DNA of 64,000 bases from Diplonema papillatum (taxonomy: Eukaryota > Euglenozoa > Diplonemea > Diplonemida > Diplonemidae). Shown one piece after another: positions 1-26,464 of the stretch (position 1 is the stretch's first letter; every line of letters begins with the position of its first letter). Location of the stretch: NCBI GenBank assembly GCA_030068145.1, contig JAPJBO010000922.1, forward strand, positions 1 through 64,000, in the 5' to 3' direction. The position numbers and the translations under genes are program-made. The notes below the pieces were generated by a model, which did no database searches, was not told the DNA's origin, and saw only the letters and a list, made by a program, of their open reading frames with translations.

Positions 1-570
1 GCATCTGCTATCTGGCGCACTTTCGTTTCTTTGCTGCTGGCGGTGGGTCACTTGACGTGCCGCGCTTGGAGCCCTTTCGTGGTTTGTTGATTACCTCGGA
101 GCATATTCGTTTGCAACAACCACATCGAAGGGGACGGACCTCACCATTGCTTTTCATCCTTCGCTTTTTTTCCCTGCCCCCCAGGAGCGGTATCGTAACG
201 GGAGGAAGTATAATATTATACTTGCACTCAAGGGTTGCAAGGCACGGGCACTTGGACGGCGTAAGTCTCACGGATGGATTCCTTCAAATGAACGGCATGG
301 GTAAACGAGGCGGGGTCTTTTTTCATTCATCTTGCTATGATTGCGACGTTTGTAAGAATTAGTAAATTTGGTCGGCAACCTTGTAAAACGTAGTAAATAT
401 ATGGGATCTTGCTTAAGAGCCACATCCATCACACTTGGGAAAACGTAGAGCTCTTTTGTGGAGCCCTCCGTTCTTCGGTGGCATGTCTCGCAGTCGACGT
501 CGGGGACACGGGTTGCCTTCTTGTTCTTCACTTTCTGTACGAGAACTTCGAGTGGCTCGGTGTAAGCTTT

Positions 571-1899
571 TTACGCCTCAACACACCCTGGGTCCCTTAG
601 GACTTTCTCGTCGTAGTGGGTCACCATGTCTCCTGATGCCCAATCACCCATCTTTTGAACCTGCATGGGGTCCATACCCGCTTTCAGAAGGGATGCAACA
701 ACCATCTATCCGGGCACTGTGGGTTAGAAAACGCGCCCTCGTCCGTCCCGAGCAGTCGGCGTCGTTGAACGGCTGCAGGATGCCCCGCTTCCCCGCAGTC
801 CCGCGGAGGGCATCCCTAAACGAGGCATGGACGGGAAACCGGCACAAGAGGCGTTTCCCCTTGGCCATGAGTTTCAGAAGGGAAAAGACCTCGACAGGGC
901 AGTACAGAATAGACTCTGGCACGCTGTCGGGTCCATTCGGCAGGAGCAAAGGGGGCAACAGATTGATGCTTTCAAAGGTGAGGTATCTACTGCACGTCCC
1001 TGTTGCCTTGAACATAGTCGATCCAACCCTCACGCCGCCCTCGCCGACGCGGACATCCTCCGTCAGGATCGACTGCATGGAGAGTGAAGTGCTCACCCAG
1101 CAGCTGCACATCCGCGCCGTACCCGCCAACGGTCCGCACGAAGCCGAAGATCTGACGGGACTGTGCGGCGCCTCGGGGCTCGTCGCTCTCAGGGTCAGGC
1201 GCCGCTCTCTTCAACGCTCTGATCATCCTGCGGATGTCGTCAGCAGGATTCTCGAGAACCCAACCATCCGCCGTGTCCTCGGCTAAGATGGCGTTGATGA
1301 TGTTGTGGGGCGCCTTGTACGCCTCATCTTTCATGCCTACAGGTATCCGCCGAAGTTCTCAAGCCTCCGGACCGTCGTCGGGTATGGATGCACGCCCTCG
1401 CTCGCACGCCACTCCCTGTACGTGGCCGTGTTCGAGTTGTTGACCCTCCTTGTGCCTGCAGTCGTGTACAGGCTCCTCATGCGAGGGCGGGCTGCATCAG
1501 GGGGACGTCCTCGAGGGCACGCTTTAGCGCCCGCCGCTGAGACGTTGACCTCTTCTCAACCGGTGTTACGGGACTGACCAGCGCAGGAGAGCTCTGATCA
1601 CGCGCTCTCACCAAGTCCTGTACTCTGCGGTACAGCTCAGGACTGGGCACACGCACCGGAAGTGCCCACATCGGAAGCCTCTCCAGTGTCAGAAGGGTCG
1701 TATCGTCCGGGAGGCCTCGGAGGCTTCTACTCACGTCCCTCCACTCTTCCTCATTGAACAAGGTCCGCAGAAACGCGACCCACCCAATCATCTTTTCTGG
1801 GGCAGGGAGGGCGGGAAGAAAAGAGAAAGAGAGACATAAATAGAGGTAGCGAGGGTTTGGAGGAGGACGCTGGCGTGCGTCGGGGCCAGTGAGAAGCAC
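571..1899 (-). mobile_element. Tyrosine-recombinase remnant in unit A
   Basis: Read in several minus-strand frames, this stretch gives the parts of a tyrosine recombinase in order: an SAM-like N-terminal domain (TYREWRASEGVHPYP, then TTVRRLENFGGYL), a core segment (ENPADDIRRMIRALKRAAPD), a beta-rich catalytic part (ILTEDVRVGEGGVRVGSTMF), the THSAR box, and a C-terminal block MGDWASGDMVTHY that would hold the nucleophilic Tyr. Such enzymes move Crypton DNA transposons and DIRS/PAT-type retroelements; which of the two this was is not clear. It is broken, with a few breaks, and the same breaks appear in all units, so it died before the array expanded. Confidence 0.75.
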
Positions 1900-2059
1900 C
1901 GGCTACATTCAAGCCTTCGAGTTTGCTGAGCCGGACGTCCAGTAGCTGTACCCCCTTCTGCAATACCTATGCCTCTTCTGTGATGTCATCTGCCTCGCAC
2001 GTGGGGGCCTCATAGCACCCACATGAACAAAAAAACATTCTTCGCATCGTAAAACATAC

Positions 2060-2158
2060 CATTGTTCTGCACGTCGACCTTGGCACCAGCTGCGATCAAT
2101 TCCTTGACAACTTCTGAGTGACCGTTCTCGCTGGCAATATGCAGAGCCGTCCAACCAT
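2060..2158 (-). CDS. Ankyrin-repeat exon, unit A
   Basis: This 99-bp exon encodes one complete 33-residue ankyrin repeat with the core DGWTALHIASENGHSEVV. On the minus strand it is preceded by gacacag and followed by a perfect GTATGT donor. Both introns are phase 1: the last base G joins the AT of the next exon to give Asp, so successive repeats read NDG in frame. Ankyrin repeats fold as helix-loop-helix-hairpin and bind proteins. Unit A has Trp at position 5, His at 9, Glu at 13 and NN at the junction. The exon has no start codon and can only be an internal exon of a gene whose ends lie outside the window or are lost. The repeat family is certain; expression is not shown. Confidence 0.9.
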
Positions 2159-2479
2159 CTGTGTCATTGGGTGAGCGGCTAAAATGTACAACGACACGAA
2201 CACAATGTGTGGGTGGTAGCAATCAGATGCAGACTGCATCACGGGCAGCCTGAAGCGGGAGGTGTTACTTTCAGATTCACGTCTCAGGGTCGAGACGCTG
2301 GCGACAGAGAATGGATGATCTTGGGCAAACACAAATCTTCCGTGTCATATGTTGACATGTGGCATCTTCTTGTCCGGAAAGTACACGTTGTGAGCCGCTC
2401 TCCACATTGGAATTCGGTGTTTTTTGGGTTCCATCTTTGTTTGATAAGGGAACAAGGGAAAACGACATTCACCGATCTG

Positions 2480-2794
2480 CTATGTATCATCCTGCTTCTT
2501 GCATGTCAAAACGTTGTGACCCGAATCACCACATCTGGCGCACTTTCGTTTCTTTGCTGCTGGCGGTGGGTCACTTGACGTGCCGCGCTTGGAGCCCTTT
2601 CGTGGTTTGTTGATTACCTCGGAGCATATTCGTTTGCAACAACCACATCGAAGGGGACGGACCTCACCATTGCTTTTCATCCTTCGCTTTTTTTCCCTGC
2701 CCCCCAGGAGCGGTATCGTAACGGGAGGAAGTATAATATTATACTTGCACTCAAGGGTTGCAAGGCACGGGCACTTGGACGGCGTAAGTCTCAC
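2480..2794 (-). pseudogene. Zinc-knuckle (CCHC) remnant in the array unit
   Basis: The minus strand reads a basic stretch and then a CCHC zinc knuckle, CARCGDSGHNVLTC (C-x2-C-x4-H-x4-C). This layout is common at the C-terminus of MULE-type transposases and in Gag proteins. An upstream piece at 2,791-3,054 reads DCETCHRRTEG and may belong to it. The segment lies downstream of the tyrosine recombinase on the same strand. Copies lie at 5,003-5,317, 7,526-7,840, about 10,080-10,299, 12,508-12,822, 21,818-22,030 and 24,255-24,569, with a cut copy at 8-271. The parent element is not identified. Confidence 0.55.
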
Positions 2795-3093
2795 GGATGG
2801 ATTCCTTCAAATGAACGGCATGGGTAAACGAGGCGGGGTCTTTTTTCATTCATCTTGCTATGATTGCGACGTTTGTAAGAATTAGTAAATTTGGTCGGCA
2901 ACCTTGTAAAACGTAGTAAATATATGGGATCTTGCTTAAGAGCCACATCCATCACACTTGGGAAAACGTAGAGCTCTTTTGTGGAGCCCTCCGTTCTTCG
3001 GTGGCATGTCTCGCAGTCGACGTCGGGGACACGGGTTGCCTTCTTGTTCTTCACTTTCTGTACGAGAACTTCGAGTGGCTCGGTGTAAGCTTT

Positions 3094-4422
3094 TTACGCC
3101 TCAACACACCCTGGGTCCCTTAGGACTTTCTCGTCGTAGTGGGTCACCATGTCTCCTGATGCCCAATCACCCATCTTTTGAACCTGCATGGGGTCCATAC
3201 CCGCTTTCAGAAGGGATGCAACAACCATCTATCCGGGCACTGTGGGTTAGAAAACGCGCCCTCGTCCGTCCCGAGCAGTCGGCGTCGTTGAACGGCTGCA
3301 GGATGCCCCGCTTCCCCGCAGTCCCGCGGAGGGCATCCCTAAACGAGGCATGGACGGGAAACCGGCACAAGAGGCGTTTCCCCTTGGCCATGAGTTTCAG
3401 AAGGGAAAAGACCTCGACAGGGCAGTACAGAATAGACTCTGGCACGCTGTCGGGTCCATTCGGCAGGAGCAAAGGGGGCAACAGATTGATGCTTTCAAAG
3501 GTGAGGTATCTACTGCACGTCCCTGTTGCCTTGAACATAGTCGATCCAACCCTCACGCCGCCCTCGCCGACGCGGACATCCTCCGTCAGGATCGACTGCA
3601 TGGAGAGTGAAGTGCTCACCCAGCAGCTGCACATCCGCGCCGTACCCGCCAACGGTCCGCACGAAGCCGAAGATCTGACGGGACTGTGCGGCGCCTCGGG
3701 GCTCGTCGCTCTCAGGGTCAGGCGCCGCTCTCTTCAACGCTCTGATCATCCTGCGGATGTCGTCAGCAGGATTCTCGAGAACCCAACCATCCGCCGTGTC
3801 CTCGGCTAAGATGGCGTTGATGATGTTGTGGGGCGCCTTGTACGCCTCATCTTTCATGCCTACAGGTATCCGCCGAAGTTCTCAAGCCTCCGGACCGTCG
3901 TCGGGTATGGATGCACGCCCTCGCTCGCACGCCACTCCCTGTACGTGGCCGTGTTCGAGTTGTTGACCCTCCTTGTGCCTGCAGTCGTGTACAGGCTCCT
4001 CATGCGAGGGCGGGCTGCATCAGGGGGACGTCCTCGAGGGCACGCTTTAGCGCCCGCCGCTGAGACGTTGACCTCTTCTCAACCGGTGTTACGGGACTGA
4101 CCAGCGCAGGAGAGCTCTGATCACGCGCTCTCACCAAGTCCTGTACTCTGCGGTACAGCTCAGGACTGGGCACACGCACCGGAAGTGCCCACATCGGAAG
4201 CCTCTCCAGTGTCAGAAGGGTCGTATCGTCCGGGAGGCCTCGGAGGCTTCTACTCACGTCCCTCCACTCTTCCTCATTGAACAAGGTCCGCAGAAACGCG
4301 ACCCACCCAATCATCTTTTCTGGGGCAGGGAGGGCGGGAAGAAAAGAGAAAGAGAGACATAAATAGAGGTAGCGAGGGTTTGGAGGAGGACGCTGGCGTG
4401 CGTCGGGGCCAGTGAGAAGCAC
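3094..4422 (-). mobile_element. Tyrosine-recombinase remnant in unit B
   Basis: Copy of the remnant described for unit A, 2,523 bp further on, with identical translated segments. Broken in the same way. Confidence 0.75.
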
Positions 4423-4582
4423 CGGCTACATTCAAGCCTTCGAGTTTGCTGAGCCGGACGTCCAGTAGCTGTACCCCCTTCTGCAATACCTATGCCTCTT
4501 CTGTGATGTCATCTGCCTCACACGTGGGGGCCTCATAGCACCCACATGAACAAAAAAACATTCTTCGCATCGTAAAACATAC

Positions 4583-4681
4583 CATTGTCCTGCACGTCGA
4601 CCTTGGCACCAGCTGCGATCAATTCCTTGACAACTTCTGAGTGACCGTTCTCGCTGGCAATATGCAGAGCCGTCGAACCAT
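4583..4681 (-). CDS. Ankyrin-repeat exon, unit B
   Basis: 99-bp phase 1-1 exon with the same acceptor and GTATGT donor as unit A. It differs from unit A by Ser instead of Trp at position 5 (TCG for TGG) and by DN instead of NN at the junction. Position 9 is His and position 13 is Glu. It shares Ser5 and an intron G/A variant with unit C, suggesting B and C are the closest pair. Confidence 0.9.
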
Positions 4682-5616
4682 CTGTGTCATTGGGTGAGCG
4701 GCTAAAATGTACAACGACACGAACACAATGTGTGGGTGGTAGCAATCAGATGCAGACTGCATCACGGGCAGCCTGAAGCGGGAGGTGTTACTTTCAGATT
4801 CACGTCTCAGGGTCGAGACGCTGGCGACAGAGAATGGATGATCTTGGGCAAACACAAATCTTCCGTGTCATATGTTGACATGTGGCATCTTCTTGTCCGG
4901 AAAGTACACGTTGTGAGCCGCTCTCCACATTGGAATTCGGTGTTTTTTGGGTTCCATCTTTGTTTGATAAGGGAACAAGGGAAAACGACATTCACCGATC
5001 TGCTATGTATCATCCTGCTTCTTGCATGTCAAAACGTTGTGACCCGAATCACCACATCTGGCGCACTTTCGTTTCTTTGCTGCTGGCGGTGGGTCACTTG
5101 ACGTGCCGCGCTTGGAGCCCTTTCGTGGTTTGTTGATTACCTCGGAGCATATTCGTTTGCAACAACCACATCGAAGGGGACGGACCTCACCATTGCTTTT
5201 CATCCTTCGCTTTTTTTCCCTGCCCCCCAGGAGCGGTATCGTAACGGGAGGAAGTATAATATTATACTTGCACTCAAGGGTTGCAAGGCACGGGCACTTG
5301 GACGGCGTAAGTCTCACGGATGGATTCCTTCAAATGAACGGCATGGGTAAACGAGGCGGGGTCTTTTTTCATTCATCTTGCTATGATTGCGACGTTTGTA
5401 AGAATTAGTAAATTTGGTCGGCAACCTTGTAAAACGTAGTAAATATATGGGATCTTGCTTAAGAGCCACATCCATCACACTTGGGAAAACGTAGAGCTCT
5501 TTTGTGGAGCCCTCCGTTCTTCGGTGGCATGTCTCGCAGTCGACGTCGGGGACACGGGTTGCCTTCTTGTTCTTCACTTTCTGTACGAGAACTTCGAGTG
5601 GCTCGGTGTAAGCTTT

Positions 5617-6945
5617 TTACGCCTCAACACACCCTGGGTCCCTTAGGACTTTCTCGTCGTAGTGGGTCACCATGTCTCCTGATGCCCAATCACCCATCTT
5701 TTGAACCTGCATGGGGTCCATACCCGCTTTCAGAAGGGATGCAACAACCATCTATCCGGGCACTGTGGGTTAGAAAACGCGCCCTCGTCCGTCCCGAGCA
5801 GTCGGCGTCGTTGAACGGCTGCAGGATGCCCCGCTTCCCCGCAGTCCCGCGGAGGGCATCCCTAAACGAGGCATGGACGGGAAACCGGCACAAGAGGCGT
5901 TTCCCCTTGGCCATGAGTTTCAGAAGGGAAAAGACCTCGACAGGGCAGTACAGAATAGACTCTGGCACGCTGTCGGGTCCATTCGGCAGGAGCAAAGGGG
6001 GCAACAGATTGATGCTTTCAAAGGTGAGGTATCTACTGCACGTCCCTGTTGCCTTGAACATAGTCGATCCAACCCTCACGCCGCCCTCGCCGACGCGGAC
6101 ATCCTCCGTCAGGATCGACTGCATGGAGAGTGAAGTGCTCACCCAGCAGCTGCACATCCGCGCCGTACCCGCCAACGGTCCGCACGAAGCCGAAGATCTG
6201 ACGGGACTGTGCGGCGCCTCGGGGCTCGTCGCTCTCAGGGTCAGGCGCCGCTCTCTTCAACGCTCTGATCATCCTGCGGATGTCGTCAGCAGGATTCTCG
6301 AGAACCCAACCATCCGCCGTGTCCTCGGCTAAGATGGCGTTGATGATGTTGTGGGGCGCCTTGTACGCCTCATCTTTCATGCCTACAGGTATCCGCCGAA
6401 GTTCTCAAGCCTCCGGACCGTCGTCGGGTATGGATGCACGCCCTCGCTCGCACGCCACTCCCTGTACGTGGCCGTGTTCGAGTTGTTGACCCTCCTTGTG
6501 CCTGCAGTCGTGTACAGGCTCCTCATGCGAGGGCGGGCTGCATCAGGGGGACGTCCTCGAGGGCACGCTTTAGCGCCCGCCGCTGAGACGTTGACCTCTT
6601 CTCAACCGGTGTTACGGGACTGACCAGCGCAGGAGAGCTCTGATCACGCGCTCTCACCAAGTCCTGTACTCTGCGGTACAGCTCAGGACTGGGCACACGC
6701 ACCGGAAGTGCCCACATCGGAAGCCTCTCCAGTGTCAGAAGGGTCGTATCGTCCGGGAGGCCTCGGAGGCTTCTACTCACGTCCCTCCACTCTTCCTCAT
6801 TGAACAAGGTCCGCAGAAACGCGACCCACCCAATCATCTTTTCTGGGGCAGGGAGGGCGGGAAGAAAAGAGAAAGAGAGACATAAATAGAGGTAGCGAGG
6901 GTTTGGAGGAGGACGCTGGCGTGCGTCGGGGCCAGTGAGAAGCAC
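5617..6945 (-). mobile_element. Tyrosine-recombinase remnant in unit C
   Basis: Copy of the unit A remnant with identical translated segments. Broken in the same way. Confidence 0.75.
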
Positions 6946-7105
6946 CGGCTACATTCAAGCCTTCGAGTTTGCTGAGCCGGACGTCCAGTAGCTGTACCCC
7001 CTTCTGCAATACCTATGCCTCTTCTGTGATGTCATCTGCCTCACACGTGGGGGCCTCATAGCACCCACATGAACAAAAAAACATTCTTCGCATCGTAAAA
7101 CATAC

Positions 7106-7204
7106 CATTGTCCTGCACGTCGACCTTGGCACCAGCTGCGATCAATTCCTTGACAACTTCTGAGTGACCGTTCTGGCTGGCAATATGCAGAGCCGTCGAA
7201 CCAT
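7106..7204 (-). CDS. Ankyrin-repeat exon, unit C
   Basis: 99-bp phase 1-1 exon with intact splice signals. Position 5 is Ser, position 9 His, position 13 Gln (CAG in place of GAG), and the junction reads DN. The rest of the repeat is identical to unit B. Confidence 0.9.
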
Positions 7205-8139
7205 CTGTGTCATTGGGTGAGCGGCTAAAATGTACAACGACACGAACACAATGTGTGGGTGGTAGCAATCAGATGCAGACTGCATCACGGGCAGCCTGAA
7301 GCGGGAGGTGTTACTTTCAGATTCACGTCTCAGGGTCGAGACGCTGGCGACAGAGAATGGATGATCTTGGGCAAACACAAATCTTCCGTGTCATATGTTG
7401 ACATGTGGCATCTTCTTGTCCGGAAAGTACACGTTGTGAGCCGCTCTCCACATTGGAATTCGGTGTTTTTTGGGTTCCATCTTTGTTTGATAAGGGAACA
7501 AGGGAAAACGACATTCACCGATCTGCTATGTATCATCCTGCTTCTTGCATGTCAAAACGTTGTGACCCGAATCACCACATCTGGCGCACTTTCGTTTCTT
7601 TGCTGCTGGCGGTGGGTCACTTGACGTGCCGCGCTTGGAGCCCTTTCGTGGTTTGTTGATTACCTCGGAGCATATTCGTTTGCAACAACCACATCGAAGG
7701 GGACGGACCTCACCATTGCTTTTCATCCTTCGCTTTTTTTCCCTGCCCCCCAGGAGCGGTATCGTAACGGGAGGAAGTATAATATTATACTTGCACTCAA
7801 GGGTTGCAAGGCACGGGCACTTGGACGGCGTAAGTCTCACGGATGGATTCCTTCAAATGAACGGCATGGGTAAACGAGGCGGGGTCTTTTTTCATTCATC
7901 TTGCTATGATTGCGACGTTTGTAAGAATTAGTAAATTTGGTCGGCAACCTTGTAAAACGTAGTAAATATATGGGATCTTGCTTAAGAGCCACATCCATCA
8001 CACTTGGGAAAACGTAGAGCTCTTTTGTGGAGCCCTCCGTTCTTCGGTGGCATGTCTCGCAGTCGACGTCGGGGACACGGGTTGCCTTCTTGTTCTTCAC
8101 TTTCTGTACGAGAACTTCGAGTGGCTCGGTGTAAGCTTT

Positions 8140-9468
8140 TTACGCCTCAACACACCCTGGGTCCCTTAGGACTTTCTCGTCGTAGTGGGTCACCATGTCT
8201 CCTGATGCCCAATCACCCATCTTTTGAACCTGCATGGGGTCCATACCCGCTTTCAGAAGGGATGCAACAACCATCTATCCGGGCACTGTGGGTTAGAAAA
8301 CGCGCCCTCGTCCGTCCCGAGCAGTCGGCGTCGTTGAACGGCTGCAGGATGCCCCGCTTCCCCGCAGTCCCGCGGAGGGCATCCCTAAACGAGGCATGGA
8401 CGGGAAACCGGCACAAGAGGCGTTTCCCCTTGGCCATGAGTTTCAGAAGGGAAAAGACCTCGACAGGGCAGTACAGAATAGACTCTGGCACGCTGTCGGG
8501 TCCATTCGGCAGGAGCAAAGGGGGCAACAGATTGATGCTTTCAAAGGTGAGGTATCTACTGCACGTCCCTGTTGCCTTGAACATAGTCGATCCAACCCTC
8601 ACGCCGCCCTCGCCGACGCGGACATCCTCCGTCAGGATCGACTGCATGGAGAGTGAAGTGCTCACCCAGCAGCTGCACATCCGCGCCGTACCCGCCAACG
8701 GTCCGCACGAAGCCGAAGATCTGACGGGACTGTGCGGCGCCTCGGGGCTCGTCGCTCTCAGGGTCAGGCGCCGCTCTCTTCAACGCTCTGATCATCCTGC
8801 GGATGTCGTCAGCAGGATTCTCGAGAACCCAACCATCCGCCGTGTCCTCGGCTAAGATGGCGTTGATGATGTTGTGGGGCGCCTTGTACGCCTCATCTTT
8901 CATGCCTACAGGTATCCGCCGAAGTTCTCAAGCCTCCGGACCGTCGTCGGGTATGGATGCACGCCCTCGCTCGCACGCCACTCCCTGTACGTGGCCGTGT
9001 TCGAGTTGTTGACCCTCCTTGTGCCTGCAGTCGTGTACAGGCTCCTCATGCGAGGGCGGGCTGCATCAGGGGGACGTCCTCGAGGGCACGCTTTAGCGCC
9101 CGCCGCTGAGACGTTGACCTCTTCTCAACCGGTGTTACGGGACTGACCAGCGCAGGAGAGCTCTGATCACGCGCTCTCACCAAGTCCTGTACTCTGCGGT
9201 ACAGCTCAGGACTGGGCACACGCACCGGAAGTGCCCACATCGGAAGCCTCTCCAGTGTCAGAAGGGTCGTATCGTCCGGGAGGCCTCGGAGGCTTCTACT
9301 CACGTCCCTCCACTCTTCCTCATTGAACAAGGTCCGCAGAAACGCGACCCACCCAATCATCTTTTCTGGGGCAGGGAGGGCGGGAAGAAAAGAGAAAGAG
9401 AGACATAAATAGAGGTAGCGAGGGTTTGGAGGAGGACGCTGGCGTGCGTCGGGGCCAGTGAGAAGCAC
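8140..9468 (-). mobile_element. Tyrosine-recombinase remnant in unit D
   Basis: Copy of the unit A remnant with identical translated segments. Broken in the same way. Confidence 0.75.
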
Positions 9469-9628
9469 CGGCTACATTCAAGCCTTCGAGTTTGCTGAGC
9501 CGGACGTCCAGTAGCTGTACCCCCTTCTGCAATACCTATGCCTCTTCTGTGATGTCATCTGCCTCGCACGTGGGGGCCTCATAGCACCCACATGAACAAA
9601 AAAACATTCTTCGCATCGTAAAACATAC

Positions 9629-9727
9629 CATTGTCCTGCACGTCGACCTTGGCACCAGCTGCGATCAATTCCTTGACAACTTCTGAGTGACCGTTCAGGC
9701 TGGCAATATGCAGAGCCGTCCAACCAT
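9629..9727 (-). CDS. Ankyrin-repeat exon, unit D
   Basis: 99-bp phase 1-1 exon with intact splice signals. Position 5 is Trp, position 9 His, position 13 Leu (CTG), junction DN. The Leu codon differs from the Glu codon of unit A at two bases. Confidence 0.9.
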
Positions 9728-10598
9728 CTGTGTCATTGGGTGAGCGGCTAAAATGTACAACGACACGAACACAATGTGTGGGTGGTAGCAATCAGATGCA
9801 GACTGCATCACGGGCAGCCTGAAGCGGGAGGTGTTACTTTCAGATTCACGTCTCAGGGTCGAGACGCTGGCGACAGAGAATGGATGATCTTGGGCAAACA
9901 CAAATCTTCCGTGTCATATGTTGACATGTGGCATCTTCTTGTCCGGAAAGTACACGTTGTGAGCCGCTCTCCACATTGGAATTCGGTGTTTTTTGGGTTC
10001 CATCTTTGTTTGATAAGGGAACAAGGGAAAACGACATTCACCGATCTGCTATGTTGCTTTGCTGCTGGCGGTGGGTCACTTGACGTGCCGCGCTTGGAGC
10101 CCTTTCGTGGTTTGTTGATTACCTCGGAGCATATTCGTTTGCAACAACCACATCGAAGGGGACGGACCTCACCATTGCTTTTCATCCTTCGCTTTTTTTC
10201 CCTGCCCCCCAGGAGCGGTATCGTAACGGGAGGAAGTATAATATTATACTTGCACTCAAGGGTTGCAAGGCACGGGCACTTGGACGGCGTAAGTCTCACG
10301 GATGGATTCCTTCAAATGAACGGCATGGGTAAACGAGGCGGGGTCTTTTTTCATTCATCTTGCTATGATTGCGACGTTTGTAAGAATTAGTAAATTTGGT
10401 CGGCAACCTTGTAAAACGTAGTAAATATATGGGATCTTGCTTAAGAGCCACATCCATCACACTTGGGAAAACGTAGAGCTCTTTTGTGGAGCCCTCCGTT
10501 CTTCGGTGGCATGTCTCGCAGTCGACGTCGGGGACACGGGTTGCCTTCTTGTTCTTCACTTTCTGTACGAGAACTTCGAGTGGCTCGGTGTAAGCTTT

Positions 10599-11927: not shown

Positions 11928-12087
11928 CGGCTACATTCAAGCCTTCGAGTTTGCTGAGCCGGACGTCCAGTAGCTGTACCCCCTTCTGCAATACCTATGC
12001 CTCTTCTGTGATGTCATCTGCCTCGCACGTGGGGGCCTCATAGCACCCACATGAACAAAAAAACATTCTTCGCATCGTAAAACATAC

Positions 12088-14514: not shown

Positions 14515-14789
14515 TAGCTCGCCGGGTGAAGCACTCCAACCGAGGTTGGGTTATTGTTATGCCTATTCTAGAGCCTTCCCGCAATCGTCGTCTTTCTGGC
14601 GACGCTACGGGAGAGCTCGTTTCGCTATTTCCGTCGTGGCAATATTATCCGTTCGAGCTGCTTTGAAGCCGAATCACATTCGCATGCATCTACATACGCT
14701 ATGACTCCGCTTTCCCAAGGACAGTTTTGCAGACTCGAGTTTTTCTTTTTCCCTCTCTGATTTTCTTTTCCTTGTTCACTTGCCTTTCC

Positions 14790-15085
14790 AGTTTGCCGGC
14801 CCATTGGCTAACATAAATGTTTGCACAAATTAAAGTATGTCCCGGCTGTCGGTTAGACTCGTGGTTTCTTTTCCTTTTCCCTGTCGCTCGCCTTTCACCT
14901 TCACCGGTCCATTGGCTAACATAAATGTTTGCGCAAATAAAGTAAGTCCCGGCTTTCGGTTGTAGACGCTGATTGTTTGTTTTTTTCCCACTTTTTTGTT
15001 TTCCTTTCCCGGTTGCCGGTCCGTTGGCTAACATAAATGTTTGCGCAAAATTAAGTAAGTCCCGGCTGCCGGTTGTAGACACATT
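14790..15085 (+). repeat. Three imperfect ~110-bp tandem copies
   Basis: The motif ccattggctaacataaatg followed by tttgc.caaat and gtcccggct is repeated at about 14,803, 14,910 and 15,020. The copies differ by scattered substitutions. They fill part of the DNA between the two direct repeats. Confidence 0.8.
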
Positions 15086-15344
15086 TCAATTTTTGGTCAA
15101 CTGGCAAATCGGACGTATCGTGTGGTAGATATTTGCAAAGACTTCTATCAAAGAAGCTATTTAGCGTGTTGTCAGTTTTCTCACTTCCGTCCACAGAGCG
15201 GATGGTGAGGCACGTCGTCAGAACTTTCTGTTCCGCCACGTGGCTTTTGAGGACATTTGATAGCAGTTCCGAAGAAGTGCATCAATGTTTTGCCAAATCC
15301 TCCACTGGTAGCTCTAACGAGACCCATGTGGTAGATCGGTAGAA

Positions 15345-15613
15345 AGAAATGCGTAGTTTTGGTTTATTCTTTTGCTTTTAGTTGTCGACAACATTATTTA
15401 CTTTCAGCGTCTTTTCATGCCTTTAAATGACGGTATTTTTGGTATTCTTTCTTCACCATGGTTTTTCTGGACTTTATGGTGCCATAGAGTTGTCGTACTC
15501 TCTCTATGCCGCCCACGTCATGTTCGTTTAGCAGCGGTTGCCGAATCATGCCGTAGCACCGTCCTTTCGCGTTTTTTTGGCTTTTTCTGATAGAAGATAC
15601 GTGGTAAAACGTG
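15345..15613 (+). repeat. Direct repeat, right copy (tgcgtagttttgg family)
   Basis: Near-identical to 14,237-14,514, with one G/A difference near the right end (gaagatacgtgg against gaaaatacgtgg). The transposase frame resumes immediately after it. Confidence 0.8.
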
Positions 15614-16208
15614 GGAAAAATCGACGGCTTCGATAATTTTCTTTGAGGGCGGGCACGGCAAGAACGACCGTGACCAGCACTTCGGCTCTGTTAGCCGGGC
15701 ACTCGACATGGCATCCCGCAAGAACGCCGTGCAAACGTTGAACGATGTCAAAGGAGTGATAGAAAGGATTGCTTGCACAGCGGCAGTTCAAGTTCGTATC
15801 CGTTCACAAACCGCCACTTTCAACGTCAGAAAGATAGGGAACGTCATGGTCATCGGGTCATATGAGAAAGACAGCCTTGGCAATGTGACAGTTCATGACT
15901 TCAGTGGTGAACCGGGGTGCAAACTTCGAGCGAAAACCCGCCCTGTGGCCTTCACGTTCACGCCAAAGGTCTCGGACAAGCTGCCGCTGTGCAACTCAGA
16001 TAGTGAGTGTGACGTACTGAGTAGCAGGAGTGAGTGCTCGTCATCTAGCTCAAGCGAAGGTCTGAAAGGAAGGCTCCATAAAAAGCGGCTCAAGAAGAAA
16101 CAGGTTTTCGACGAGCTGGCTGCGAAAGACCAAAAAGAGGCTAAGAGAGCAAGAACCACTGGCAGGAAACCTGTAGCAAAGTCAGCAAGTCGCGGCACGA
16201 AGCGGTAG
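15611..16208 (+). pseudogene. Unclassified DDE transposase, 3' part
   Basis: The frame opens just after the right-hand direct repeat and reads FFEGGHGKNDRDQHFG, a motif typical of the last catalytic block of DDE transposases, followed by an all-helical segment, a Ser-rich acidic patch and a very basic tail ending in SRGTKR at 16,208. An internal Met at 15,708 is not the true start; the reading continues upstream of it. It is the continuation of the gene that starts at 13,039. Confidence 0.6.
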
Positions 16209-16452
16209 CCAACTCGATGGTATTCCGCTGCTCTTTTCCTTCCTTCATCAGAATCAATCAAGGGACATCGAAATCCAGAAAAACAGCGTTTTGTGCTCAA
16301 AAGAAGGCTCGCCGAGAGCATTTGAGCTCGAAATCGGCTCGCAAACATGGTTTTTGGGGGGGTGTGGGTCCTATACCCCACTTGCCCAGTATCTTACTAT
16401 GCCAGAAAACATCTGCCCAAACCCCCCCCCCCCCCCCCCCTTTTGGCATCGT

Positions 16453-17891
16453 ACCATATTATACTTGCACTCAAGGGTTGCAAGGCACGGGCACTTGGAC
16501 GGCGTAAGTCTCACGGATGGATTCCTTCAAATGAACGGCATGGGTAAACGAGGCGGGGTCTTTTTTCATTCATCTTGCTATGATTGCGACGTTTGTAAGA
16601 ATTAGTAAATTTGGTCGGCAACCTTGTAAAACGTAGTAAATATATGGGATCTTGCTTAAGAGCCACATCCATCAGACTTTGGAAAACGTAGAGCTCTTTT
16701 GTGGAGCCCTCCGTTCTTCGGTGGCATGTCTCGCAGTCGACGTCGGGGACACGGGTTGCCTTCTTGTTCTTCACTTTCTGTACGAGAACTTCGAGTGGCT
16801 CGGTGTAAGCTTTTTACGCCTCAACACACCCTGGGTCCCTTAGGACTTTCTCGTCGTCCCTGTTGCCTTGAACATAGTCGATCCAACCCTCACGCCGCCC
16901 TCGCCGACGCGGACATCCTCCGTCAGGATCGACTGCATGGAGAGTGAAGTGCTCACCCAGCAGCTGCACATCCGCGCCGTACCCGCCAACGGTCCGCACG
17001 AAGCCGAAGATCTGACGGGACTGTGCGGCGCCTCGGGGCTCGTCGCTCTCAGGGTCAGGCGCCGCTCTCTTCAACGCTCTGATCATCCTGCGGATGTCGT
17101 CAGCAGGATTCTCGAGAACCCAACCATCCGCCGTGTCCTCGGCTAAGATGGCGTTGATGATGTTGTGGGGCGCCTTGTACGCCTCATCTTTCATGCCTAC
17201 AGGTATCCGCCGACTTTCTCAAGCCTCCGGACCGTCGTCGGGTATGGATGCACGCCCTCGCTCGCACGCCACTCCCTGTACGTGGCCGTGTTCGAGTTGT
17301 TGACCCTCCTTGTGCCTGCAGTCGTGTACAGGCTCCTCATGCGAGGGCGGGCTGCATCAGGGGGACGTCCTCGAGGGCACGCTTTAGCGCCCGCCGCTGA
17401 GACGTTGACCTCTTCTCAACCGGTGTTACGGGACTGACCAGCGCAGGAGAGCTCTGATCACGCGCTCTCACCAAGTCCTGTACTCTGCGGTACAGCTCAG
17501 GACTGGGCACACGCACCGGAAGTGCCCACATCGGAAGCCTCTCCAGTGTCAGAAGGGTCGTATCGTCCGGGAGGCCTCGGAGGCTTCTACTCACGTCCCT
17601 CCACTCTTCCTCATTGAACAAGGTCCGCAGAAACGCGACCCACCCAATCATCTTTTCTGGGGCAGGAAGGGCGGGAAGAAAAGAGAAAGAGAGACATAAA
17701 TAGAGGTAGCGAGGGTTTGGAGGAGGACGCTGGCGTGCGTCGGGGCCAGTGAGAAGCACCGGCTACATTCAAGCCTTCGAGTTTGCTGAGCCGGACGTCC
17801 AGTAGCTGTACCCCCTTCTGCAATACCTATCCCTCTTCTGTGATGTCATCTGCCTCACACGTGTGGGCCTCATAGCACCCACATGAACAAA
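16453..17891. repeat. Array unit F, first part
   Basis: Array sequence resumes after the DDE transposon at the point equivalent to 2,737 and runs to the point equivalent to 2,028. About 390 bp equivalent to 3,134-3,520 are missing. It carries several substitutions not seen in A-E, so it is older or less well homogenised. The unit continues at 21,385, on the other side of the retroelement. Confidence 0.9.
16814..17759 (-). mobile_element. Tyrosine-recombinase remnant in unit F
   Basis: Shortened copy of the remnant described for unit A, with the same order of parts. Broken. Confidence 0.7.
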
Positions 17892-17995
17892 ATACTCGAC
17901 GTAGCTGCTTCGACTCCGAATGAAAGGGGGGAAATATAGAGGTAAGGGGCAAATACAATACAAACACAATCTGATTTGTTCTTCGCTTACACCAC
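17892..17995 (-). repeat. Split direct repeat, B half
   Basis: On the minus strand it reads aaatcagattgtgtttgtat... to gcagctacgtcgagtat. It matches the B halves at 29,934-30,034, 30,238-30,333, 54,272-54,363 and 63,253-63,345. Confidence 0.85.
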
Positions 17996-18783
17996 GACGA
18001 AACTCCCACGTGGGCCCGCAAGGTTCATGCCGAAATACCCGCGGACGCCCTCATCCAGTTCGAACTGGTAGAAGTAGCTCTTCGCATCCGCCAGGTAGAC
18101 GACCGCCGAGCTTAGCACCCGATCGATCACGTCGGGCATGGAGGGCAGGAGCATCGGAGGCGGTCGGGGCATGACAGCGTTCAGCTTTCGTCCATCGCAC
18201 ACGAACCTCTCCCCCCCGCTCTTCTTGGGAACCGTGAATGCGGGGAGCACGACTCTCGGATGCTCGTGTGCTACCTCCGCGACACCGTACTTCAGCAGGT
18301 CCGGAAGGTGGTGTAGCATCCGCCTCGAGGTCCCGCGCGCTATGGCCTCTGAGTGCCAAGAGGAGGCGTCGCGGACTAGTGCGGACTCGAGAGACTCACG
18401 CGACCTGATAACGTCCAACACGCCTCCGAGTAGGCCGTGTGTATCCATGGCAAGGAGCCTGTCGAGATCCATGAAGGAGGACGTGATGGGCGCTAAATAC
18501 CCCTCCGAGCTGCGCTGCGCCGGAGGAGCGGCAAGCTCGTTGACGATGAGGTCGCCCCCGTAGGCGACGGTGACGAAAGGCGTAAAATCCGACGGCGGGG
18601 CATCGCCGATGCCCCCATGGTGCCGGATCGCTTCCAAAAACGCCGGGGGGGGTACATCCTGCGACAAAGCATCGGGTCCAGGATAGCACTTGGACAGGGG
18701 GTTACGAGGAGCTCTCTTCGGCGGCCTGTATGGGAAAACCGGTTCCAAAGGGATGCTTACAGGAGGGTTGCCGACGCGCATGC
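17987..18783 (-). mobile_element. Reverse-transcriptase region of the retroelement
   Basis: A reading that can start at a Met near 18,783 shows the finger and early palm blocks of a DIRS/PAT-type reverse transcriptase: PAFTVPKKSGGERFVCDGRK, then VVYLADAKSYFYQFELDEG with the first catalytic Asp. The reading leads into the B repeat. The element is broken, so no further enzyme domains follow here. Confidence 0.8.
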
Positions 18784-19610
18784 CGTCTCCCGGACGAGGG
18801 GCACCTCCGCCTCCGGGAGGTAGCGTACCAAAGCGTCCTGGGTCGCGTGGCGGGACACCCTCTGGAGCGTGTCGAGGTCGACGCCCATTTTTAGGAGGCG
18901 AAACAGCGCCCCCCGGCGGAGAGAGTGCCCCGTCAGGGCCTGATTCGACCTCTTCAACGCCGCTACGACGCGGCGAAACGTCACGCCCGCGAAAATGCGC
19001 TGACCCGGGCGTGCGGAGCGGAGGAGAGATCGGAGAGTCTCGTCCTCCTCCGGTGGAAGGACCACGCCGGTCACTTGTCCCAAACGGAAGGGGTCCGACT
19101 TCGAACCGACCCAGTTCACGGACCAGAAGTCGGGGCTCTCGGTCACGTTCCGGGCCTCCCTGGTGAGAACGTCGTCCACCCGGGCTGCTCCCTGCCACGC
19201 GAGAGTGATGGCCAGACGCATCACGGGATCCGTCTCGAGGCGCACGGCGCGCGCCACATCCTCTTTCGTCGCCGGAACTGCCTGCTTGGCGGGACGCAAG
19301 GCACCCGCCCTCTTCAGGGATCGGATGAAGTCTCGAACCAGCTGGCTCTCTATGGGCCGACCGAGTCGCCTCTCCGCGGACTGTATGTTGACCACATACT
19401 GTACCGCGGTGGATGTCGAGATGCTGTTGGGCTCGCGCGACAAGAGACGCGTCACGAACAGAACGACCGCCGTCGGAACGTCCAACGGCGTACCGAATCG
19501 CGTCTCCCAGTGACGGCGGAACTCTAGGAAACGCCGGTATACCGAATGAACGCCGCGTCGCGTCGACAACGCCAGCGCGTCGCCGATGTACGAGTTGGCC
19601 TTGCCAACAA
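18757..19610 (-). mobile_element. Tyrosine recombinase of the retroelement
   Basis: The last ~283 residues of a long minus-strand frame form a full-looking tyrosine recombinase. An SAM-like N-terminal domain (RGVHSVYRRFLEFRRHWETR) is followed by the catalytic boxes: GAARVDDVL with the first Arg, HSLRRGALFRLLKMG with His and second Arg, SRHATQDALVRYLP with the second His and the Tyr. The enzyme would insert a circular DNA intermediate. It overlaps the start of the reverse-transcriptase reading by about 26 bp. Confidence 0.85.
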
Positions 19611-19706
19611 GTCTCTCCCGCTCGCCGTTCGACAGCGGAGGTTCCAACAAGAGCGCCCGACCACCGGATGTCGCGCGCGGAGGTGGGGGGAACCGGTCCA
19701 AGACAC

Positions 19707-21175
19707 TCACCGAGACCCTTTCCTCCTGCTGCCGGCGCGTGCCCCGTCCGCCTGAGGAGGGGGGGCTGCGCTGTGGGGAGGGGCAGCGCGCCTCGTCGGC
19801 TGTAACCCCGACCCCCGCGACCTGGCGGGCTTCGCCGGCTGTTCGTCCGCCTTCCGCATCGCCTGAAACCCCCGGCGCAGGTAGGCGGGCACCTCGTCCT
19901 CCTCGTGGTACCCCTTCTGGAGGTCCGCCGCAACGGACCAGCCCGCCTTGAGGGCTGTTTTGAGCACCACCATGCGGTGCAGGGTGCTCTCCGCGAGCCG
20001 CACCATCCCCTCTTGGTCGGAGGTGTCGTCCATCAGATGTAGGATGCACGAGAGGTGGTGGAGGAGGTGCTGGCCGTCGTTCGCCAGGGCCTGCGACCCA
20101 TTTAGGACTTCCGCAAAAATATCGCGGATGTGGACGAGGAGCAGCGACTTCTCGACCGGCCCGTAGGACAGCCACACGCGGGGGTCGAGGAGCCCGGGGC
20201 CCGGGGTGATCAGCGCTGGTTGGGATTGAACGGACCCGCGCTCCAGCGCGTCGAGCGGGTCCTGCTGAAAAACCTCCGTCTGGGAGGGTGCCGAGAAATG
20301 TTGCCCCGCGAAGGGGTTCTCCTGAGCCGGTTGGGAGGGCTGCGTCGGCGCCGGAACGGGAGCCGGCGGCTGGGGGGCAGAGAAGGGCGCCGGAGTATGG
20401 CCTGCCCCCGCGTGGTGAGACCCGAACGGGACGCGCGAGGCATCGACGAGGGGAGGCGGAGGCGGCACCTCCATGCCGCGCTGGACAGATGGACGCTGAG
20501 GGGCTGGGGGCGAGGAGCGTTCCACGAGCGCCAGCACCATCGCGGTGAGGCGCTCCACCTGGCTCTCCAGGCGCCGGATGTCGTCCGGGCGTTCCGCAAA
20601 CGTCACCCGCCTCGCGGGTGTGTCCTGCACGTCGACCTGCAGGGCCCGGGCGACCTCTTCGTCCCCCTCCGGTGTTCCCGGGAGCGGAATCCCCGAGGGG
20701 GTGCGCGGAGCAGCAGCGGAAGACGAGGCGGCGGAGGGGTCGGCCGCGGCAGCAGCAGCAGAGGTGGCGGCAGTCGAGGAGGCGTGGGCCGCGGCGGCGC
20801 GAGAAAGCGGCGTAATCCGCCGAGTCCGAGTGCGCGGCGTCAGCGGAGCGGCCAGGCAGCCGAGGGGAGGGGCCTTCGTGGTGGGCCGGCGACACTGAGC
20901 GTACCAGCTCTTCGAAGTCCGCAGGGGTGGCCGTGGGCGCGGACGCGCACGCCAACCAAGCCAACACCCACTGCGCCGTCCCGCTCGGCGGCTCCTCGCC
21001 CCCCAGGGCCCCTAGCAGAGACCTCAGGTACGCGTCCGCGGAAGCGCCGGCATCCCCCGCCAACCGGATAATCGGCCGCAGCCGACCATTGTCCGGACGA
21101 AAATGGAAAGCGGACGGAACTTGGAGCCCCGTAGCCTGCTTCACCCACTCCACCGCGGCCTCCCTGCTCCACTTC
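19707..21175 (-). mobile_element. Gag-like region of the retroelement
   Basis: The first Met after the A repeat (near 21,175) opens a reading with MKWSREAAVEWVKQATGLQ. A second reading, from a Met at 20,630, starts with a short coiled coil (RRLESQVERLTAMVLALVER), a Pro-rich linker and a helical domain (YGPVEKSLLLVHIRDIFAEV). No zinc knuckle was seen. The position and composition suggest a nucleocapsid-type protein. The region belongs to a broken element. Confidence 0.5.
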
Positions 21176-21182
21176 ATCCCTT

Positions 21183-21384
21183 TTTGTTCTTCGCTTACAC
21201 CACCGTGTGTTGTTTTCTCACTCAGGACTTTGACCTGTTGTGTTTGTGTGATTTGTCGTGTAGGGGTAGACCCGCATGACCTCACGTCCGTTCAACACGT
21301 GGTTCGGTAGTTACAGCACTTGGGATCCCTTCTGTTCTTTGTCGGGCAGCATCGTCGAGCATTTCCTTTCAAGCTGGCGCTTAT
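21183..21384 (-). repeat. Split direct repeat, A half
   Basis: On the minus strand it reads ttacataagcgccagctt... to ggtggtgtaagcgaagaac. It is the 5' end of the retroelement and matches the A halves at about 30,035-30,237, 40,198-40,412, 54,076-54,270 and 63,345-63,562. Confidence 0.85.
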
Positions 21385-21420
21385 GTAAAAAAAAAACATT
21401 CTTCGCATCGTAAAACATAC

Positions 21421-21519
21421 TCTTGTCCTGCACGTCAACCTTGGCACCAGCTGCGATCAATTCCTTGACACCGTCTGAGTGACCGTTCTCGCTGGCAACA
21501 TGCAGAGCCGTCCAACCAT
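21421..21519 (-). CDS. Ankyrin-repeat exon, unit F
   Basis: 99-bp exon with the same acceptor and a GTATGT donor. It has Trp at 5, His at 9, Val at 10, Glu at 13, and DG in place of EV at positions 18-19, with DK at the junction. The last exon base is A rather than G, so the residue made with the next exon would be Asn instead of Asp. It is the most diverged copy and lies directly beside the inserted retroelement, which leaves its donor side only 36 bp of array intron. Confidence 0.8.
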
Positions 21520-22342
21520 CTGTGTCATTGGGTGAGCGGCTAAAATGTACAACGACACAAACACAATGTGTGGGTGGTAGCAATCAGATGCAGACGGAGG
21601 TGTTACTTTCAGATTCACGTCTCAGGGTCGAGACGCTGGCGACAGAGAATGGATGATCTTGGGCAAACACAAATCTTCCGTGTCATATGTTGACATGTGG
21701 CATCTTCTTGTCCGGAAAGTACACGTTGTGAGCCGCTCTCCACATTGGAATTCGGTGTTTTTTGGGTTCCATCTTTGTTTGATAAGGGAACAAGGGAAAA
21801 CGACATTCACCGATCTGCTATGTATCATCCTGCTTCTTGCATGTCAAAACGTTGTGACCCGAATCACCACATCTGGCGCACTTTCGTTTCTTTGCTGCTG
21901 GCGGTGGGTCACTTGACGTGCCGCGCTTGGAGCCCTTTCGTGGTTTGTTGATTACCTCGGAGCATATTCGTTTGCAACAACCACATCGAACGGGACGGAC
22001 CTCACCATTGCTTTTCATCCTTCGCTTTTTTCCCTGCCCCCCCGGATGGATTCCTTCAAATGAACGGCATGGGTAAACGAGGCGGGGTCTTTTTTGATTC
22101 ATCTTGCTATGATTGCGACGTTTGTAAGAATTAGTAAATTTGGTCGGCAACCTTGTAAAACGTAGTAAATATATGGGATCTTGCTTAAGAGCCACATCCA
22201 TCTCCCTTGGGAAAACGTAGAGCTCTTTTGTGGAGCCCTCCGTTCTTCGGTGGCATGTCTCGCAGTCGACGTCGGGGACACGGGTTGCCTTCTTGTTCTT
22301 CACTTTCTGTACGAGAACTTCGAGTGGCTCGGTGTAAGCTTT

Positions 22343-23671
22343 TTACGCCTCAACACACCCTGGGTCCCTTAGGACTTTCTCGTCGTAGTGGGTCACCATG
22401 TCTCCTGATGCCCAATCACCCATCTTTTGAACCTGCATGGGGTCCATACCCGCTTTCAGAAGGGATGCAACAACCATCTATCCGGGCACTGTGGGTTAGA
22501 AAACGCGCCCTCGTCCGTCCCGAGCAGTCGGCGTCGTTGAACGGCTGCAGGATGCCCCGCTTCCCCGCAGTCCCGCGGAGGGCATCCCTAAACGAGGCAT
22601 GGACGGGAAACCGGCACAAGAGGCGTTTCCCCTTGGCCATGAGTTTCAGAAGGGAAAAGACCTCGACAGGGCAGTACAGAATAGACTCTGGCACGCTGTC
22701 GGGTCCATTCGGCAGGAGCAAAGGGGGCAACAGATTGATGCTTTCAAAGGTGAGGTATCTACTGCACGTCCCTGTTGCCTTGAACATAGTCGATCCAACC
22801 CTCACGCCGCCCTCGCCGACGCGGACATCCTCCGTCAGGATCGACTGCATGGAGAGTGAAGTGCTCACCCAGCAGCTGCACATCCGCGCCGTACCCGCCA
22901 ACGGTCCGCACGAAGCCGAAGATCTGACGGGACTGTGCGGCGCCTCGGGGCTCGTCGCTCTCAGGGTCAGGCGCCGCTCTCTTCAACGCTCTGATCATCC
23001 TGCGGATGTCGTCAGCAGGATTCTCGAGAACCCAACCATCCGCCGTGTCCTCGGCTAAGATGGCGTTGATGATGTTGTGGGGCGCCTTGTACGCCTCATC
23101 TTTCATGCCTACAGGTATCCGCCGAAGTTCTCAAGCCTCCGGACCGTCGTCGGGTATGGATGCACGCCCTCGCTCGCACGCCACTCCCTGTACGTGGCCG
23201 TGTTCGAGTTGTTGACCCTCCTTGTGCCTGCAGTCGTGTACAGGCTCCTCATGCGAGGGCGGGCTGCATCAGGGGGACGTCCTCGAGGGCACGCTTTAGC
23301 GCCCGCCGCTGAGACGTTGACCTCTTCTCAACCGGTGTTACGGGACTGACCAGCGCAGGAGAGCTCTGATCACGCGCTCTCACCAAGTCCTGTACTCTGC
23401 GGTACAGCTCAGGACTGGGCACACGCACCGGAAGTGCCCACATCGGAAGCCTCTCCAGTGTCAGAAGGGTCGTATCGTCCGGGAGGCCTCGGAGGCTTCT
23501 ACTCACGTCCCTCCACTCTTCCTCATTGAACAAGGTCCGCAGAAACGCGACCCACCCAATCATCTTTTCTGGGGCAGGGAGGGCGGGAAGAAAAGAGAAA
23601 GAGAGTCATAAATAGAGGTAGCAAGGGTTTGGAGGAGGACGCTGGCGTGCGTCGGGGCCAGTGAGAAGCAC
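22343..23671 (-). mobile_element. Tyrosine-recombinase remnant in unit G
   Basis: Full-length copy of the remnant described for unit A, with a few private substitutions near its N-terminal end. Broken. Confidence 0.7.
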
Positions 23672-23831
23672 CGGCTACATTCAAGCCTTCGAGTTTGCTG
23701 AGCCGGACGTCCAGTAGCTGTACCCCCTTCTGCAATACCTATGCCTCTTCTGTGATGTCATCTGCCTCGCACGTGGAGGCCTCATAGCACCCACATGAAC
23801 AAAAAAACATTCTTCGCATCGTAAAACATAC

Positions 23832-23933
23832 CCTTCCCCTCCTGCACGTCGACCTTGGCACCAGCTGCGATCAATTCCTTGACAACTTCTGAGTGACCGT
23901 TCTCGCTGGCAATATACAGAGCCGTCGAACCAT
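23832..23933 (-). CDS. Ankyrin-repeat exon, unit G
   Basis: 102-bp exon, one codon longer than the others at its 3' end (junction EGK in place of DN), still phase 1-1 with a GTATGT donor. Position 5 is Ser, 9 is Tyr and 13 is Glu. It would be the most 5' ankyrin exon visible on the minus strand. Confidence 0.85.
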
Positions 23934-24636
23934 CTGTGTCATTCGGTGAGCGGCTAAAATGTACAACGACACGAACACAGTGTGTGGGTGGTAGCAATCA
24001 GATGCAGACTGCATCACGGGCAGCCTGAAGCGGGAGGTGTTACTTTCAGATTCACGTCTCAGGGTCGAGACGCTGGCGACAGAGAATGGATGATCTTGGG
24101 CAAACACAAATCTTCCGTGTCATATGTTGACATGTGGCATCTTCTTGTCCGGAAAGTACACGTTGTGAGCCGCTCTCCACATTGGAATTCGGTGTTTTTT
24201 GGGTTCCATCTTTGTTTGATAAGGGAACAAGGGAAAACGACATTCACCGATCTGCTATGTATCATCCTGCTTCTTGCATGTCAAAACGTTGTGACCCGAA
24301 TCACCACATCTGGCGCACTTTCGTTTCTTTGCTGCTGGCGGTGGGTCACTTGACGTGCCGCGCTTGGAGCCCTTTCGTGGTTTGTTGATTACCTCGGAGC
24401 ATATTCGTTTGCAACAACCACATCGAAGGGGACGGACCTCACCATTGCTTTTCATCCTTCGCTTTTTTGCCCTGCCCCCCAGGAGCGGTATCGTAACGGG
24501 AGGAAGTATAATATTATACTTGCACTCAAGGGTTGCAAGGCACGGGCACTTGGACGGCGTAAGTCTCACGGATGGATTCCTTCAAATGAACGGCATGGGT
24601 AAACGAGGCGGGGTCTTTTTTCATTCATCTTGCTAT

Positions 24637-26460: not shown

Positions 26461-26464
26461 ACCT

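Follow-up and report, generated by a model that had tools for sequence, protein, structure and literature searches.

The first 24 kb of the window, a 64,000-nucleotide stretch of the Diplonema papillatum genome (positions 1–64,000 of contig JAPJBO010000922.1, assembly GCA_030068145.1; hereafter C922:1-64000), contain seven ankyrin exons on the minus strand, each encoding one ankyrin repeat. The exons lie in 2.5-kb units that recur in tandem arrays. An initial annotation of the window proposed that change in these units is focused at presumed ligand-contact codons inside homogenized DNA, and this holds across 70 units and in a second type of array. We lean towards reading the arrays as tandem single-repeat exons of D. 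papillatum ankyrin–protein kinase genes, shaped by concerted evolution together with diversifying selection, which suggests a large and recently diversified set of recognition modules. The exon architecture, the copy number, the two array types, the focal variation, the loose linkage between sites and the kinase neighbourhood are all read directly from the assembly. We further infer that the hypervariable codons contact a binding partner, an assignment based on the ankyrin numbering used in designed ankyrin repeat proteins (DARPins) and on a fungal paper.

Exons A–F are 99 bp long and exon G is 102 bp. All seven share the acceptor ACACAG/AT (slash, splice junction) and fit phase 1. The donor context is ..G/GTATGT in A–E and G and ..AAGA/GTATG in F. 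Since these are phase-1 exons of one repeat apiece, any number of copies can be joined with the reading frame kept. The exons and the units that hold them are as follows:

2060–2158, minus strand: ankyrin exon A, DGWTALHIASENGHSEVVKELIAAGAKVDVQNN
4583–4681, minus strand: ankyrin exon B, with S5, H9 and E13
7106–7204, minus strand: ankyrin exon C, with S5, H9 and Q13
9629–9727, minus strand: ankyrin exon D, with W5, H9 and L13
12088–12186, minus strand: ankyrin exon E, with R5, Y9 and E13
21421–21519, minus strand: ankyrin exon F, an older copy, HVASENGHSDGV, last base A
23832–23933, minus strand: ankyrin exon G, 102 bp, one repeat
10–12560, minus strand: contiguous units A–E in head-to-tail order, of 2,523 bp except for D (2,459 bp)
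12561–12962, minus strand: partial unit adjoining E, interrupted by an insertion
16456–17892, minus strand: exon-less unit sequence, read as the downstream flank of F displaced by the insertion at 17893–21382
21383–24636, minus strand: the exon-bearing part of unit F, then unit G; unit homology stops at 24636

The initial annotation had placed all seven exons in near-identical 2.5-kb units. The number of exons stands, but only A–E are contiguous; F and G are separated from them by two insertions (12963–16455 and 17893–21382). Eight further intron bases of G differ from those of A–E, which marks it as an older copy. The F–G pair of exon types recurs on contigs C1035 (L042) and C1046 (L045). Because the window begins at the start of the contig, the array runs off the contig at the array's own downstream end, and the contig stops short of any kinase that might belong to it.

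Base-by-base alignment of units A–E confirmed a count first made by eye. Six exon sites vary (2066, 2128, 2129, 2141, 2152 and 2153 in unit A), all six differences are replacements (synonymous, 0/6), and the flank holds one variable intron base (1997 in unit A) and one 64-bp deletion, which lies in D. The exon excess, 6 of 99 bases against 1 of 2,360 flank bases, is significant (Fisher exact p=2.5e-8). Intron and exon have therefore not diverged equally, nor are synonymous changes as frequent as replacements. Excluded from the count were 13 mismatching alignment columns within E's first 19 bases, an artefact of the cut at the D–E deletion junction. Five units are a small sample, and a wider check was made on 70.

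Four genome searches of differing strictness matched exon patterns at 205, 207, 177 and 367 places, with 0 matches for reversed controls. Codon 13, counted by eye in 100 places listed of the 205, is GAG in 64, GGG in 11, CGG in 8, CAG in 6, CTG in 4, AAG in 3, GCG in 2 and TGG and CTC in 1 each, with no stop among them. D. papillatum, a diplonemid (Euglenozoa), is reported to be haploid, with <600 single-nucleotide variants in 142 Mbp; the copies should hence be paralogues rather than alleles, barring duplication in the assembly.

The 70 units came from the window and 20 other genome stretches, which gave 76 exon matches, six with <180 query bases being dropped. The figures describe substitutions in alignable flank, after masking of flank windows with local divergence and removal of bases inserted relative to the reference. 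Nucleotide diversity (pi) is 0.0437 in the exon (34/99 sites variable) and 0.0021 in the flank (70/2,424). Fourteen hypervariable exon bases were defined from this profile, the other exon bases numbering 85. The hypervariable sites correspond to ankyrin positions 1, 2, 3, 5, 9 and 13. Variation extends to the last exon base, which with the following AT encodes position 3 as Asp, Asn, His or Tyr, and one unit carries a block replacement of codons 13–14 by Tyr-Phe. Positions 2, 3, 5 and 13 are DARPin library positions; the accessible part of the DARPin paper describes randomization of surface positions. Among 47 units selected for at most four flank differences, a criterion that in part dictates the low flank diversity, pi is 0.00117 in the flank (29/2,424 sites), 0.207 at the hypervariable bases (13/14 variable) and 0.0025 at the other exon bases (5/85 variable, three from one unit).

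Comparison of unit pairs, which are not independent of one another, separates the two classes of site further. Flanks of at least 1,800 bases were available for 1,231 pairs, and in 99 of these pairs no substitution separates the flanks, over a mean of 2,265 bp. These 99 pairs differ on average at 2.19 of the 14 hypervariable bases versus 0.09 of the other 85, and 85% of them differ at one or more hypervariable bases. The hypervariable distance barely grows with divergence of the flank, reaching 3.44 at 4–8 flank differences and 4.00 in the 10 pairs with at least nine. Within 33 very similar units, all four combinations occur in 14/21 site pairs and mean r2 is ~0.07, the highest value (0.48) belonging to two adjacent bases of codon 13. 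Single codons hence assort largely independently, and whole-exon shuffling, a feature of the brown-algal receptors with which the initial annotation compared the array, is not supported as the main source of variety. Nor does the algal comparison help in placing the host, which is a diplonemid and not a brown alga.

A second array type (type-2) varies at the same codons. Copies on C842, C1002 and C1010 match the 2.5-kb (type-1) unit only from −585 to +239 (~97%); beyond the shared part lies other DNA, and in the type-2 intron an RNase H-like retroelement open reading frame (ORF) runs antisense. Among these three copies the stretches −600 to +5 and +124 to +1554 show no difference. Between the two stretches, in zero-based numbering that begins with the exon, sites 6–7, 17, 20, 29–30 and 96–98 of the exon vary and a single T at 123 is not shared; two copies are out of frame. 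A 301-bp piece of the type-2 intron is 100% identical in all 40 places scored of 813 candidates and occurs in same-strand series, for example nine on C842 and nine on C963. Exon letters were paired with this piece by expected distance. In 21 of the 40 places so read, codon 5 is TGG (W) in 11 and TTC (F), TAC (Y), AAC (N) or GCC (A) in 2 each, and the remaining 2 are out of frame. The same codons therefore vary on two intron backgrounds. A mobile element with the exon as its cargo was not adopted as an explanation, because type-2 units stand in same-strand series on several contigs.

Two annotated proteins, DIPPA_19608 (734 amino acids (aa)) and DIPPA_11962 (772 aa), join related ankyrin repeats to a protein kinase domain (Pfam). 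Nine repeats were compared in each, and both proteins vary at positions 1, 2, 3, 5, 10 and 13. Position 9 is variable in DIPPA_19608 and less so in DIPPA_11962; positions 18 and 29–33 also vary, with some rows there out of register. A genome search with DIPPA_19608 located 61 kinase places. Wherever strand could be tested (a contig with an exon in our typed list of 95), the kinase lies on the ankyrin strand (29/29 places), and an ankyrin exon stands upstream on that strand in 23 of them, within 3.6 kb in 12. The kinase exon at C842:90230-91640, on a type-2 contig, is complete in Pfam terms (profile 2–257 of 263, E 8.7e-48) and sits in a 357-aa open frame. Ten places with 54% identity are stop-free across 426–429 aa, of which only C842 and C1068 were also seen with the type-2 intron. 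A protein search with the seven repeats joined gave no row named D. papillatum among 120 listed of 1,866, many of them nameless and with listed lengths of only ~128–408 aa.

The type-1 unit also bears an ORF that probably ties it to a repeat already described:

435–1286, plus strand: 283-aa ORF with a TTG start in unit A, antisense to the exons, without Pfam match

In its accessible text, PMC10161547 describes a ~20-kbp dispersed repeat of D. papillatum with 13 occurrences, each of about eight tandem 2.5-kbp motifs, and every motif bears a 283-aa ORF that is apparently untranscribed and shows no similarity. Unit length, tandem order and the 283-aa ORF all match the unit studied here, and we infer that the two are probably the same. 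The word ankyrin is absent from that text, and its sections 6, 8 and 9 describe neither hypervariable codons nor a link to kinases.

In the explanation that we favour, splicing would join the ankyrin exons to encode one long solenoid that precedes the kinase, and the ankyrin–kinase products would serve as recognition receptors. Unequal exchange and gene conversion would keep homogenizing the units, introns included, and diversifying (rare-type) selection on the binding surface would retain alternative contact codons, which would thereby assort on an otherwise identical background. We simulated such a process with 200 units, conversion tracts of mean 300 bp and codons varied at the start, with one run per setting. 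Under rare-allele selection, hypervariable pi was 0.75, flank pi 0.0006–0.001 and r2 0.02–0.05; near-exon pi rose to 0.0045 in one run with selection and was zero in the second such run. All hypervariable variation was lost in the run without selection. Conversion and selection can thus give the pattern in simulation, so that targeted mutagenesis is not required. The initial proposal of diversifying selection or a focused process thus gains partial support, in that simulated variation, on these single runs, vanishes unless diversity is favoured.

Several observations weigh against this explanation. The simulated hypervariable pi of 0.75 compares with 0.21 observed, and the simulation comprised a single run per setting with variation present at the start and parameters of our choosing. 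The hypervariable sites were chosen post hoc, from the same data as were tested. Pi is also raised just 3′ of the exon (bins of 0.029 and 0.015), a stretch marked by a T-run, by frequent substitutions (+153 and +161) and, in 15 units, by a 23-bp deletion. The 89 complete exons (three truncated ones excluded) comprise 66 of 99 bp, 11 of 96, 102 or 111 bp and 12 that are out of frame, all 12 being shifted at or ≤2 bp from hypervariable sites, and selection on the protein does not predict such exons. The one kinase examined after a type-1 array, on C1046, is without its N-lobe (profile 90–258), is frameshifted and stands after an ankyrin exon that breaks off near base 84; the same truncated exon match, of 144 bp, is present on C1222 and C1035. 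When DIPPA_19608, its three long relatives and the ten 54%-identity places are set aside, 34 of the remaining 47 kinase places begin at residue 486 or later and 13 begin at 454–455 and contain one to three stops, some of which may be the natural end. The majority of kinase matches thus look incomplete or interrupted by stops. A Pfam scan of window 24601–44400 (minus strand, three frames) found no N-terminal exon and only a weak Myosin_head stretch, and the genome search with DIPPA_19608 gave no exon structure upstream of residue 315. Finally, the 283-aa ORF of the matching 2.5-kb repeat is apparently untranscribed (PMC10161547, accessible text).

Focused hypermutation would account for the variation differently, through an active process that, blind to protein function, rewrites contact codons and introduces indels at them. 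It fits the 2.19 hypervariable differences per pair seen even where the flanks do not differ, a figure that climbs only to 3.44 at 4–8 flank differences, the differences between three otherwise identical type-2 copies at hypervariable sites, the block change of codons 13–14 to Tyr-Phe and the position of all 12 frameshifts. Small indels (≤3 bases) cluster in the same way: over ~150 kb aligned, 18 lie within 2 bp of hypervariable sites, 45 in flanks and 5 elsewhere in exons, a density far higher at hypervariable sites than in flanks. Some of the 18 are in frame; four represent the 3-bp insertion that G-type exons have in common, and two compensate each other. Diversity-generating retroelements likewise confine variation to particular codons of a binding fold while the DNA around stays constant, with mutations directed to template adenines. 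Here, however, the setting is a eukaryotic nuclear genome, all four bases change and many exon adenines are invariant, and on this base spectrum adenine-directed mutagenesis was rejected. No template was identified, in a search that covered the exon family only and was not systematic; the type-2 intron does hold the antisense RNase H-like retroelement ORF. Moreover, conversion with selection simulates the same pattern without hypermutation, and none of the 100 listed places (of 205) has a stop at codon 13. We consider hypermutation unlikely as the source of the variation. Equally doubtful, in our estimation, is its fuller form, a focused diversification active in a eukaryotic nucleus, in which the binding-surface codons (1, 2, 3, 5, 9 and 13) of several hundred near-identical cassettes would be rewritten at each copying, with indels at these sites and the kilobases around unchanged, to yield a library for ankyrin–kinase receptors.

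The 2.5-kb arrays might instead be a silent archive, a set of untranscribed donors that supply short tracts, by copying, to expressed ankyrin–kinase genes, much as silent donors in trypanosome variant surface glycoprotein arrays are copied into expressed genes. Their diversity would then mirror selection on the recipient genes. The truncated kinase after the C1046 type-1 array, set beside ten 54%-identity places open over 426–429 aa, is consistent with such donors and recipients, as are the 12/89 out-of-frame exons, the 283-aa ORF reported without transcription (PMC10161547, accessible text) and non-contact exon sites almost as invariant as introns. No donor–recipient pair has been demonstrated, however, and an archive by itself leaves the single-codon variation of donors on identical flanks unexplained; we rate it slightly below hypermutation. 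Plain amplification of an ordinary repeat, with an exon excess due to assembly or consensus error, is very improbable: the accessible text of PMC10161547 does warn of duplicated or collapsed repeats, and the frameshifts and indels at heterogeneous sites could come from assembly confusion or mixed reads, but it is almost always the same codons that differ, in both array types, and they overlap the variable positions of annotated ankyrin–kinase proteins, and random errors would hit the 2,424-bp flank ~24 times as often as the 99-bp exon.

Two further features of the units are of separate interest:

1477–1796, minus strand: MIG ORF, EKMIGWVAFLRTLFNEEEW.., whose phase fits that of the ankyrin exon, to which model DIPPA_17351 joins it
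17893–21382, minus strand: insertion inside unit F, with a tyrosine-recombinase-like ORF

One unit ORF is 100% identical to DIPPA_17351 across the aligned 75%. A relative of the MIG ORF (89–90% protein identity) was found on contigs outside the ankyrin matches listed. Models DIPPA_17351 and DIPPA_20965 would make the MIG ORF a C-terminal domain of the ankyrin protein; we did not adopt this as our principal reading, because 11 of the 12 places of the relative are on contigs without an ankyrin match among those listed (150 of 712 candidates scored). The MIG ORF may be mobile-element sequence absorbed by the gene predictor. A 97-aa ORF that is 90% related to it and protein-identical in 12 places among the 150 candidates scored (C12, C19, C46, C128, C358, C478, C521, C667, C983, C1151, C1175 and C1980) looks like a recently spread element. 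A Pfam scan of six unit ORFs and the 283-aa ORF gave no match.

The ORF of the insertion at 17893–21382 matches Phage_integrase at 26.2 bits, just below the curated cut-off of 27.1 (Pfam). The other insertion, 12963–16455, contains a 433-aa ORF without Pfam match (12979–14280) and a 264-bp direct repeat of 99.6% identity (14243–14506 and 15344–15607). A sequence of 210–320 bp is present in five copies and both orientations (21182–21394, 30025–30329, 40200–40412, 54069–54367 and 63250–63568), probably the ends of one mobile-element family. Upstream of the array, 25089–26907 has a counterpart next to the array of contig C786 (96.5% identity) and holds a weak RNase H-like ORF and a 121-bp unit piece (26339–26459). 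The rest of the window includes an AG dinucleotide run (44886–44970; 42.5 copies, 100% regular), a 90-bp minisatellite (47073–47931; 9.5 copies, 94% matches) and a plus-strand protein-kinase fragment (62905–63078; Pkinase 27.5 bits, under the Pfam cut-off) that lies, as far as seen, outside ankyrin arrays.

Three published systems resemble the arrays. Fungal NOD-like receptors with high-internal-conservation (HIC) ANK, TPR or WD repeats (PMC4986451, PMC12222747) also combine near-identical repeats, concerted evolution and few hypervariable positions; the Diplonema exons likewise are >85% identical with few hypervariable positions, as in the definition of fungal HIC repeats. In Podospora ANK repeats, five positions are under positive selection; together with further variable sites they fall, one exception apart, on the concave surface. 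The fungal receptors carry NACHT or NB-ARC, whereas the partner in the annotated Diplonema proteins is a protein kinase. Pfam scans of DIPPA_19608 and DIPPA_11962 gave ankyrin, kinase and one weak unrelated match and no NACHT or NB-ARC, which puts the Diplonema arrays outside the fungal class. Each Diplonema repeat, moreover, has its own exon in a kilobase unit, with hundreds of copies over many contigs, and the near-identical introns around it provide a neutral yardstick that the fungal repeats lack.

The zinc-finger minisatellite of PRDM9 (PMC8925151) is also a tandem coding unit homogenized except at contact codons (−1, 3 and 6), and in the Diplonema units the contact codons, as assigned by ankyrin numbering, are likewise far more variable than the rest. 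PRDM9 differs in having 84-bp units with no introns between them and a DNA ligand, and in minke whales its diversity drops ~2.5-fold without the hypervariable sites, a weaker contrast than 0.207 versus 0.0025 here. Brown-algal LRR-ROCO genes, proposed immune receptors (PMC11378527; Zambounis 2012 quoted there), similarly have one repeat per exon, in constant phase and in tandem. The Diplonema exons share the single repeat and the constant symmetric phase and not the LRR-ROC-COR architecture: the algal genes combine LRR, phase 2 and a ROC-COR GTPase, and those of Diplonema ankyrin, phase 1 and, in the annotated proteins, a kinase. In Diplonema, single codons assort, not just whole exons as in the algal genes.

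The arrays probably work on the principle of fungal HIC repeats and PRDM9, a more unusual mechanism being less likely. We found no published report of ankyrin–kinase arrays in diplonemids (subscription papers and supplements were not searchable), and the literature searched held no description of the recognition-receptor repertoire of these organisms. The arrays supply hundreds of natural replicates, with near-identical introns as an internal neutral control. Their varied positions are presumably almost those that protein engineers randomize. If expressed, they would give D. papillatum, a marine, single-celled and free-living relative of trypanosomes, a large natural repertoire of ankyrin binders.

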